This document shows positions 45,901 through 48,900 of a stretch of DNA of 64,000 nt, one piece after another. Each line of letters starts with the position of its first letter. Positions within the stretch are counted from its first letter, which is position 1. Both the position numbers and the translations under genes were made by a program. The DNA is from Artemia franciscana (Eukaryota; Arthropoda; Branchiopoda; Anostraca; Artemiidae): the NCBI RefSeq assembly GCF_032884065.1, contig NC_088872.1:33948917-34012916 (forward strand), given 5' to 3'. The notes below the pieces were generated by a model. That model was not told where the DNA came from and searched no databases. It saw only the letters and a list, made by a program, of their open reading frames with translations.

Positions 45901-48900
45901 TCCCCGTCATTTGTGTCCCGTTTTCCCGGTCTTTAATCTCGTCAGTCGACAAACATGACGTCAGTCGACACACAAACATGACGTCACTCGATACACACAC
46001 ACACACAGACAACTTATTTTTATATATATAGATTTGCTATTTATATGCCCTGTATATAATTTTGCTTGTTCCTCTAGAAAGATTTTGTCTAGTGCTTTTT
46101 TCTTAGGAGTTCCTTCCAGGGAAGGGAGGCATAATTGGGTTTCTGTAAGGCCATGTTTTGACAGTTAAATGAAGGGTGCTCATAACTCCTTTTACAACTA
46201 ACTTTTTGTGTCATGACTGTCCTTTACTTTTATTTTTAGTAAAAGCAATCGATTCTTGTGGTTTGTAGGATTATTTTTGCTTTTGATTGTATTTTGAGAA
46301 AAATGCCCCCTTTTACAATTCTTTTTTCTGTTGCCCTGATGATTCACTGTTATGTATTCAAATATTATTAGCTTTTTAATTTTACTGGCATCAAGTCCCT
46401 TTTCTATTTCTTTTATTTTGTAAAGACCGAAAATATTTTTTTTTCGCTTCTTCAAGAAACAGGGCCTTTTCTCCGAAAAAAGGGACAAAAAATGTATGAA
46501 GTTCAAGCTCAAGGCTTAACTTTCATATATATTACGCCAAATTATGTAAGAAATCGTCGAACTAGAGGTACTGAAAAATGTCGCCGTATCTCCCTGAAGT
46601 AATTTCATTTAATCTCTCGTATTATAACTATTAACGTATTATAACTATAAATATGTAAATATTCTCCATTTTTTCAGCACAAAGTTCTCACAGCAATACA
46701 CAAGCACTATACTGTTGACGATTGGAAAGAGTTTGCCAGAACAAATAAAGATCTTATGCCTTATGTGTCTATTTCAAGCGGGACAAGCAAAGAAGACTTT
46801 GCAAAGTTACAAGAAGTTGTCGGACATGTAAGCAGTTTATTTAGCTTTTGGCCTCGTTTTCTTTCAAGGAAATATTAGTGGTTTTCCAGCGTGAAACATT
46901 TTCCTTTGGTTCATGCTCTTATTATTCCAAAAGAGTTTTATTCAAAGCCTCCAATATCACGACTGTAAGTGCCTGCTTAACACTTTAGGCCCAGATTCTC
47001 ACCAAAGACATTGCTGTATGTGGGAAAGGATGCTTCCCTAATCATAGACCGCGAAGGGCTTATGCCCTTATTAATAATTGAAAGTGATTGAAAGGCAACT
47101 AACATCACTCCCACGCCCACTATTTCCTTAACCACATCCAATAAAAGTTTTGAGATAGCCATTTTGCTCAACGTATTTGATAGGTCCAGAGTTATGACTT
47201 CGAGGCTGACAACCACTCCAGAGCCCTGGGCAAGGGTTTTAAGTCATGCCCTGGGGGCATAGAAGGTTTGAATAAAAATGGTAATCGTATAAACTTCGGA
47301 GGGGGCTCATTGGATTGCTAATCAGAAGTTTTAGTGCCCTTTTTGGAATTCAGAGTGATGGAAGGGTGAATACCCCCTCCCAACACACACACACACGCAC
47401 CTCGTATTTTCCCAATTTGCATCTGATAGAGGTTTCTAGATGGCTATTTGTTGTCGTAGAATCTTCGAACAAGGTTCATTCGTTTGAAAATTGAAAGGGC
47501 TGGTGCCTATTTTAATAGTCGAAAGTGATTAGAGGGCAACTAACCCCTTCCCACGCCCACCATTTCTCCAAACACATCCAATCAAAATTTTGAGATAGTC
47601 ATTTTGTTCAACGTAGTTGAAAGGTTCGGAATTATGTCTTTGAGGATGATTAAATAAAAAAACAAGTTTTTTTAAATGAAAGTAAGGAGCGACATTAAAA
47701 CTTAAAACGAACAGAAATTACTCCGTATGTGAAAGGGGCTTTTCCTCCTCAGCGCCCCGCTCTTTACGCTAAAGTTAAATCTACATTTTAAAACAGTAAA
47801 AAACTTTAGCGTAAAGAGCGGGGCGTTGAGGAGGAAAAGCCCCTTTCATATACGGAGTAATTTCTGTTCGTTTTAAGTTTTAATGTCGCTCCTTACTTTC
47901 ATTTAAAAAACTTTTTTTTTAAATTTAGTTTCTGAACGTTTTTGAATCAATGCATGTTTTGATTTTGGCTCTCCGCAGAGGAATAATTAAAACGAAATTT
48001 GTATATTTATTTTTTTTTTTTTGGCTAAATGGCTTTCTCATAATTTTGATCGAATGATTTTGAGAAAAAAAGAGAGGGGAGGAAGCTTAGTTGCCCTTCG
48101 ATTTTTGGCTAATTAAAAAGGCAACTAGAACTTTTAATTATTTACGAATCTTTTTATAAGTAAAAGATATACGTAATTTACGAATTAACTTACGTAACAA
48201 ACTTCTATATTCGTATGTTTTTATTGCGTATATGAGGGAGTTCACCCCTCGTCGATACCTCGCTCTTTACATTAAAGCTTAAATTCTGTCCCAATTCCTT
48301 AAGAATGACCCTTGAATAACAAAGGCCGTAGAATAATTAGTTGAAATTACTAAAAATACTTTAGCGTGAAGACCGAGGTATTACGAGGAGGTAAACCCCT
48401 CATATGCGCAATAATTTCTGCTCGTTTTAAGTTTTAATGCTGCTCCTTACTTTTAGTAGAAAAAAACTTTTCATATTTATTTTTTCATTGTTTTTTTAAA
48501 TAATGCTAAAAATCCTGCGCCCCCTTGATTGAAAGTCTCTTCCCCCATGAGAAGTTTTTCCATGGAAAGATCCTCCCATGTAACCCCCCCCCCCACCTCA
48601 ACTCTCCCTCCCAAACCAAAAAAATCCCCCTGAAAACGACCGCACACTTCCCAGTAACCATTACTATATGTAAACACAGGTCAAAGTTTGTAACTTGCAA
48701 CCCCTTCCACGGGGACTGCGGGGGAGTAAGTCGTCCCGAAAGACATAGTAATCAGGTTTTTTGACTATGGTGAATAAAATGGCTATCTCAGAAATTTGAT
48801 CCGGTGACTTTGGGGAAAAATGAGCGTGGGAGGGGGCCTAGGAGCCCTCCAATTTTTTTGGTCACTTAAAAAGGGCACTAGAACTTTATAATTTCCGTTA

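Follow-up and report, generated by a model that had tools for sequence, protein, structure and literature searches.

A long 5' palindrome with arms that change together on a putative Helitron-like element of Artemia franciscana

The palindrome at 47.7 kb in a 64-kb stretch of the Artemia franciscana genome (hereafter the window) forms the 5' terminus of a non-coding transposon of ~1.7 kb that has thousands of copies. In the source lineages of this transposon, concerted change of the two palindrome arms is more frequent than separate change, and the spacer between them occasionally flips; after insertion, the arms decay mostly independently. The reading that we favor, with a probability of about 0.7, is that template switching or gene conversion acts episodically on the 5' palindrome of a Helitron-like element, both inside a copy and, at times, from one copy to another.

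Structure and class of the element

The 47.7-kb palindrome is not free-standing but makes up the first ~279 bp of the repeat at 47650-49347. We set the ends of this copy (E47) by alignment of the copies and from the empty sites in a flanking array of ~430-bp units. The element runs from TTAAAT to TTTGA, with GTTCGTTACCACGAACTGTTTGA as the 3' end word, and the copies have in common a 3' terminus composed of GTCGCTCCTTAC, the stem-loop ACAGTTCG-TTACCA-CGAACTGT and then TTGA. The features, in window coordinates, are as follows.

47650-49347, plus strand: whole element, copy E47, putative non-autonomous Helitron-like, TTAAAT ... CTGTTTGA
47651-47776, plus strand: E47 left arm of the 5' palindrome, by inverted-repeat detection; 94% complementary to the right arm
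47682-47693, plus strand: 5' subterminal inverted repeat GTAAGGAGCGAC in the E47 left arm; its inverse copy lies in the right arm at 47885-47896
47777-47801, plus strand: E47 spacer, shortened, 'inv' orientation
47802-47927, plus strand: E47 right arm of the 5' palindrome, by inverted-repeat detection
48356-48482, plus strand: third, unpaired arm copy inside E47
49309-49320, plus strand: 3' subterminal inverted repeat GTCGCTCCTTAC, reverse complement of GTAAGGAGCGAC
49322-49343, plus strand: 3' stem-loop, 4 nt from the 3' end
59629-61374, minus strand: copy E61, young subfamily, spacer 'dir'; arms 61247-61377 and 61079-61209, 98% complementary
29864-31472, plus strand: copy E30, left arm shortened, spacer 'inv'; arms 29864-29939 and 29977-30052, 89% complementary
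22386-24098, plus strand: copy E22, old, arms unhomogenized, spacer 'dir'; arms 22386-22510 and 22548-22672, 85% complementary
13517-15112, plus strand: copy E13, right arm only (13554-13678)
13035-13321, plus strand: P13a, a separate old palindrome with arms 26% different

Further 3' fragments of the repeat lie elsewhere in the window, and a second copy without a palindrome (31473-31626) begins right at the 3' end of E30, head-to-tail. The window also holds a ~285-bp satellite-like repeat, present as a 475-nt inverted duplication (96%) at 55166-56357 and in arrays at ~19757-22201 and 62486-64000. Other long palindromes occur at 45288-45908, 28433-29065 and 50262-50791, the last of which contains an arm-motif-like stretch, AAAACGAACAGAAAT. 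A reverse transcriptase fragment at 8790-9356 (Pfam RVT_1, 6.6e-12) appears by eye to be of the non-LTR type. The 360-codon frame at 1176-2258, for which there was no Pfam match above the cut-off, may, by eye, represent a Penelope-type terminus bearing a GIY-YIG-like motif.

From the ends, the insertion pattern and the junctions, we infer that the element is a non-autonomous, non-canonical rolling-circle transposon of the Helitron-like type. This class is indicated by the ends together with the lack of a target-site duplication, the A/T site preference, the 3' stem-loop, the subterminal inverted repeat and the head-to-tail junctions. As a group, 48 copies had no target-site duplication (mean word shared by the two flanks 4.6, against 4.0 in mismatched pairs); the four longest shared words were those of two tandem copies (L064 and L070), of L007 (12 bases, at an offset) and of L054 (8). 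E47 interrupts its ~430-bp tandem array with neither duplication nor loss relative to the other array units, which represent the empty site. The empty sites listed for other copies also supported no duplication, L015 having an A-run with two extra A. With 5' ends aligned to the end motif, the preceding base was A in 74 of 81 cases, and the base following the 3' end was T in 40 of 52 (otherwise A in 8 and C in 4). Insertion between A and T is, therefore, a preference rather than a rule. We assigned the preceding A to the target on the basis of the empty site in the array and the head-to-tail junction. In the 1.27-Gb genome there are 206 exact instances of this junction, CACGAACTGTTTGA-TTAAATAAAA, and 0 of its reversed control; in L064, the ~13 bp between successive copies is found again after the last one.

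Canonical Helitrons (general background and PMC4067079) resemble the element in A/T insertion, absence of duplication, 3' hairpin and tandem copies. Their hairpin lies ~11 nt from the end, however, and the 8-bp stem found here lies 4 nt from it; the canonical 5'-TC and CTRR-3' termini are absent from the element. It does carry the subterminal inverted repeats (11-15 bp class; GTAAGGAGCGAC and GTCGCTCCTTAC) and 3' stem-loop of the Helentrons and their non-autonomous HINE relatives, but its sites do not match their insertion in TT. Open frames with Helitron Rep domains are abundant in the genome (7,435 first-look candidates, with all 150 of the 150 scored above the cut-off), and a female A. franciscana assembly is reported to contain 8.81% Helitrons (PMC11492255). 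In the single autonomous Helitron stretch examined for an autonomous partner sharing these ends (L091, of the 150 scored), there was no convincing match.

Other classes were considered and rejected. The palindrome is at the 5' end only and there is no target-site duplication, as opposed to a MITE or foldback element. The 5'-truncated copies with a common 3' end prompted a retrotransposon reading, which we dropped because target-site duplications are not the rule. Rfam searches at a loose threshold returned mainly sub-threshold miRNA-type matches on hairpins and AT repeats, and collections of viral and bacterial contigs gave 0 matches to one 21-base pattern.

Likeness of the arms within and between copies

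A preliminary description of the window had held that, within each copy, the two arms match each other better than they match other copies. The arm letters it quoted were correct in all four copies (47.7, 61.2, 29.9 and 22.4 kb), and the likeness is real and well above chance; yet it does not extend to every copy, and most of the shared changes belong to subfamilies. Of 98 positions in the trimmed arms, left and right differed at 2 in the 47.7-kb copy and at 1 in the 61.2-kb copy. The count rose to 13 of 82 in the 29.9-kb copy, where the left arm is cut short and its outer end is thus unrelated, and a fifth copy, at 13.0 kb, had 23 differences in 88 positions. In the 22.4-kb copy the arms differed at 15 of 99 positions, and the right arm is nearer to the 47.7-kb right arm (9/98) than to its own left. 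Over all pairs of the five copies, which are not independent, 52 site patterns grouped the arms by copy and 4 were crossed; the clustering of left with left and right with right, which the preliminary description had set against its own claim, was a minority pattern (6). For the 47.7- and 61.2-kb copies alone, by-copy and left-left/right-right patterns were equal (3 vs 3). A tree of the arms paired the left with its own right arm for the 61.2-kb (94/96) and 29.9-kb (98/97) copies, but left the 22.4- and 13.0-kb arms unpaired and the 47.7-kb arms without a resolved placement. The right arms of the 47.7- and 61.2-kb copies differ at only 4 of 98 positions and the bodies of this pair by 14.9%. 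Between copies, arms have thus diverged less than bodies, and slow change or exchange may account for some of the likeness. The third arms inside the elements serve as a helpful, if diverged (~75% identical), control: they cluster in the tree by position rather than with the arms of their own copy, and close spacing seems to matter.

For genome-wide comparisons, one set of loci (30 loci, plus one later set) was chosen by similarity to the 47.7-kb palindrome and two others by the body. For a separate sample (n=20), selected on the spacer, the inner part of the right arm and the body, we took about every fifth row among the first 100 of 5,791 matches to the 'inv' spacer, all on contig C1. Two of the 30 loci (L021 and L023) gave no palindrome beside the body, two of 20 stretches in another set (L074 and L081) were not extracted, and palindromes with weak arm scores or without an adjoining body start were left out throughout. 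L020_m1804 and L014_p586, with long or doubtful bodies, were excluded from the parsimony, mutation-type and core-exchange analyses, L078 also from the mutation-type analysis, and L076 (right-arm deletion) and L078 from the young-subfamily test. All members of the n=20 sample were kept, though L107 and L113 have left arms that are either unrelated or absent. L107 (C1:9588195-9588600) combines a typical right arm with a left arm of another, more diverged kind that has a 27-nt insertion.

Across 71 palindromes from the genome, the summed left-right differences were 349, against a mean of 487 under random pairing (0 of 1000 pairings as low). The 28 palindromes from loci chosen by body alone gave 139 vs 185, and the n=20 sample 125 vs 194 when shuffled (0 of 2000 as low). 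Genome-wide, the E47-type core occupies both arms in 1,421 palindromes, and 38 hybrids pair it with an E30-type core in the opposite arm, a number that we compare with the E47/E47 count only; among the 100 of 5,791 matches listed, the E30-type right core was the majority by eye.

Most of the changes that had been called copy-specific are, on this scale, subfamily-specific. Among 112 palindromes, subfamily marks, insertions included, were usually in both arms, and most private changes in one. G29A, for example, was in both arms of 10 copies, in the left arm alone of 0 and in the right alone of 3; the corresponding counts were 7, 1 and 0 for A35C and, in the n=20 sample, 5, 0 and 1 for T67G. One-base insertions were present in both arms of 4 copies (35G, with 0 and 0 one-arm cases), 3 copies (31G) and 1 copy (34G), and each of 12 other indels was in one arm of one copy. 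Within a copy, left and right arms differed by 5.1%. In comparisons with the three nearest bodies, the differences were 6.0% (left-right) and 6.7% (left-left), both above the within-copy value, and 4.5% for right-right. A small copy-level excess of arm likeness persists inside the subfamilies: the summed differences were 50.0 vs 53.6 shuffled within 20 E61-type copies (10 of 5000 as low) and 83.8 vs 95.1 within 16 E47-type copies (0 of 5000).

Parsimony on the body tree, in which 41 of 70 inner branches are weak, placed 17 events of the same change in both arms on internal branches (out of 40 events in left arms and 31 in right arms; ~0.2 expected by chance). Ten of these 17 form five forward-and-back pairs on the weakly resolved tree. 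Terminal branches had 25 such concerted events (out of 219 left and 152 right; chance ~2.2), 12 of them in three copies. Together, the shuffles, the parsimony and the counts of hybrid and E47/E47 palindromes support the proposal, made from the window, that the arms are homogenized. Changes seen once were biased to the left arm (55 left, 29 right, p 0.006), a bias absent from the young E61 subfamily (14 left and 16 right besides T10C).

The preliminary description had also offered another route to like arms, replication through a single-stranded hairpin in which one arm would serve to rebuild its partner. If this happened at every transposition, arms identical at birth that then decay would fit the excess of private one-arm changes (48 left and 30 right against 4 in both arms among changes of a single copy). 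One-arm differences fixed in whole subfamilies contradict it, as arms rebuilt at each transposition would not retain them: among E61-type copies, all 20 tested carry T10C in the right arm alone; T24C is in the left arm of 16 copies (0 right, 0 both), G19A in 18 left (1 right, 2 both), T47C in 12 left (3 right, 1 both) and C17G in 7 left (0, 0). The orientation of the spacer, moreover, is stable inside clades rather than mixed. Obligatory rebuilding at each transposition is thus excluded; rebuilding is very unlikely as the explanation, though occasional rebuilding through a hairpin is possible.

Spacer inversion, core transfer and the proposed copying of arms

Relative to the 61.2-, 22.4- and 13-kb copies, the 29.9- and 47.7-kb copies carry the spacer as its reverse complement. 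Among 73 copies, 65 had the 'inv' and 8 the 'dir' orientation, and the body tree requires at least 4 changes between the two, one of which depends on L014_p586, a copy with a doubtful body. The spacer has, therefore, inverted in some lineages; L014_p1796 is a lone flip within an 'inv' clade.

Core transfer between copies was flagged in 2 of 89 copies, and core and body distances are broadly concordant (Spearman 0.52). L078 has an E61-type body (5/270 differences) but the core of another subfamily, with 12 substitutions and an insertion, each in both arms, and a reversed spacer. L065, whose body is in another clade, has nearly the same core. A common core on different bodies is what would be expected if intact cores were swapped between copies and no arm was ever copied onto its partner. 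We consider exchange of this sort unlikely as the sole process: it leaves the origin of the first both-arm change in a core unexplained, and L075 carries a two-arm change (A54G) absent from all other arms then compared.

Selection for base pairing in an RNA or single-stranded DNA hairpin could also yield matching changes, through compensation and with no copying of arms. Inner-half positions held 22 of the 25 change types found mostly in both arms and 81 of the 146 never in both (p 0.002), and transitions made up 17 of the 25 and 53 of the 146 types, respectively (p 0.004), an enrichment that wobble-tolerant pairing would be expected to give. Changes in both arms preserve pairing and, in the first samples, spared the 12 innermost positions together with most of the outer arm; the n=20 sample had them in the outer half too (T67G, A81G and G87A). 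Counted by events, transitions also made up 253 of 407 left-right mismatches, and G.T-type exceeded A.C-type mismatches (146 vs 107, p 0.017, shared subfamily sites included). Compensation does not, however, account for the shared insertions, the spacer inversion or the transfer of whole cores, all of which need copying, nor for the 8 of 25 both-arm types that are transversions without a wobble path. Further, selection would hardly act against a single mismatched base in a hairpin of ~126 bp, and subfamilies have fixed some such mismatches. Pairing selection in place of copying is, for these reasons, quite unlikely, yet selection to keep the hairpin in source copies may add to the pattern.

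It is highly improbable that each palindrome arose as a separate inverted duplication of a single-arm ancestor, with arms that match through youth. A fresh inverted duplication of this sort does exist in the genome, unless it is an assembly fold-back: positions 1-1301 of L093 (C6:21070900-21072200) contain a 413-nt inverted repeat, 99% complementary, with a 25-nt spacer. The repeat is upstream of an autonomous Helitron frame and missing from the related copy L094/L091, consistent with either a recent duplication or a fold-back. Copies with two arms, by contrast, have common arm-spacer junctions and a homologous spacer, and the palindrome thus most likely arose once, before the subfamilies. The four bodies in the window are also 12-19% apart, a far larger distance than the 1-2% that separates left from right arm in two of these copies.

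In the episodes of template switching that we propose, the strand being synthesized at one arm would take the opposite arm, or the palindrome of another copy, as its template; alternatively, gene conversion would repair a break at the palindrome. A switch within a copy would make the arms alike, and copying within the palindrome could produce both-arm changes, insertions and transversions included. A switch onto another molecule could invert the spacer or introduce a foreign core. Gene conversion and template switching leave identical products. Arm homogenization and spacer inversion, the traits matched here, are both reported as results of template switching between inverted-repeat arms (PMC8604942). 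It is conceivable, if doubtful, that the copying of arms and flipping of spacers take place on replication intermediates, with the 5' palindrome as a working part of the element and the orientation of the spacer as a record of earlier replication, comparable to flip/flop in viruses that have terminal hairpins.

Known systems and significance

The template switching described in yeast coding genes resembles the present case in arm homogenization, spacer inversion, recurrence and short spacer (PMC8604942). It involves arms of ~10-16 bp in single genes; here, arms of ~100-126 bp sit on the end of a mobile element and, unlike in yeast, subfamilies inherit the products. There is also a structural likeness to HINE/DINE-1 non-autonomous Helentrons, which are also non-coding, lack a target-site duplication and have 12-nt subterminal inverted repeats, a stem-loop close to the 3' terminus and a 5' inverted repeat able to pair with the subterminal one (PMC4067079, PMC7492417). 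The 5' pairing arm is, however, 7-12 bp in oyster HINEs and ~126 bp here, with a 25-45-nt spacer; HINEs insert in TT or T-rich sites rather than mostly after A and before T; and the distance of the subterminal repeat from the 5' end, 2-4 nt in mites, is 32 nt here (PMC4067079, PMC7492417). Fusarium Helitron2 likewise has asymmetric inverted repeats, joined ends and, in some groups, a hairpin at each end, but its hairpins are short, its terminal letters and target are different, and its families are coding (PMC5148889).

Among the matches listed in open-licence titles and the starts of abstracts, there was no description of transposon palindromes with arm homogenization or spacer inversion. Nor did the matches listed in the open-licence Helentron and Helitron2 literature include an element of this description, and the letters of the arm sequence were found in no open-licence paper. 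Human Y palindromes and plastid inverted repeats also keep their arms alike while the spacer or single-copy region inverts, but they are single loci of kilobase scale and the element here is a dispersed family. Within the open-licence literature searched, the mechanism is already known and a concerted, long 5' palindrome on an element of rolling-circle type appears to be new.

Our findings suggest a rolling-circle element whose 5' hairpin is unusually large. The identity of the arms is a poor clock for the insertion of such an element. Thousands of dispersed palindromes, with the bodies as an independent family tree, provide a natural experiment on the rates of arm copying and spacer flipping.
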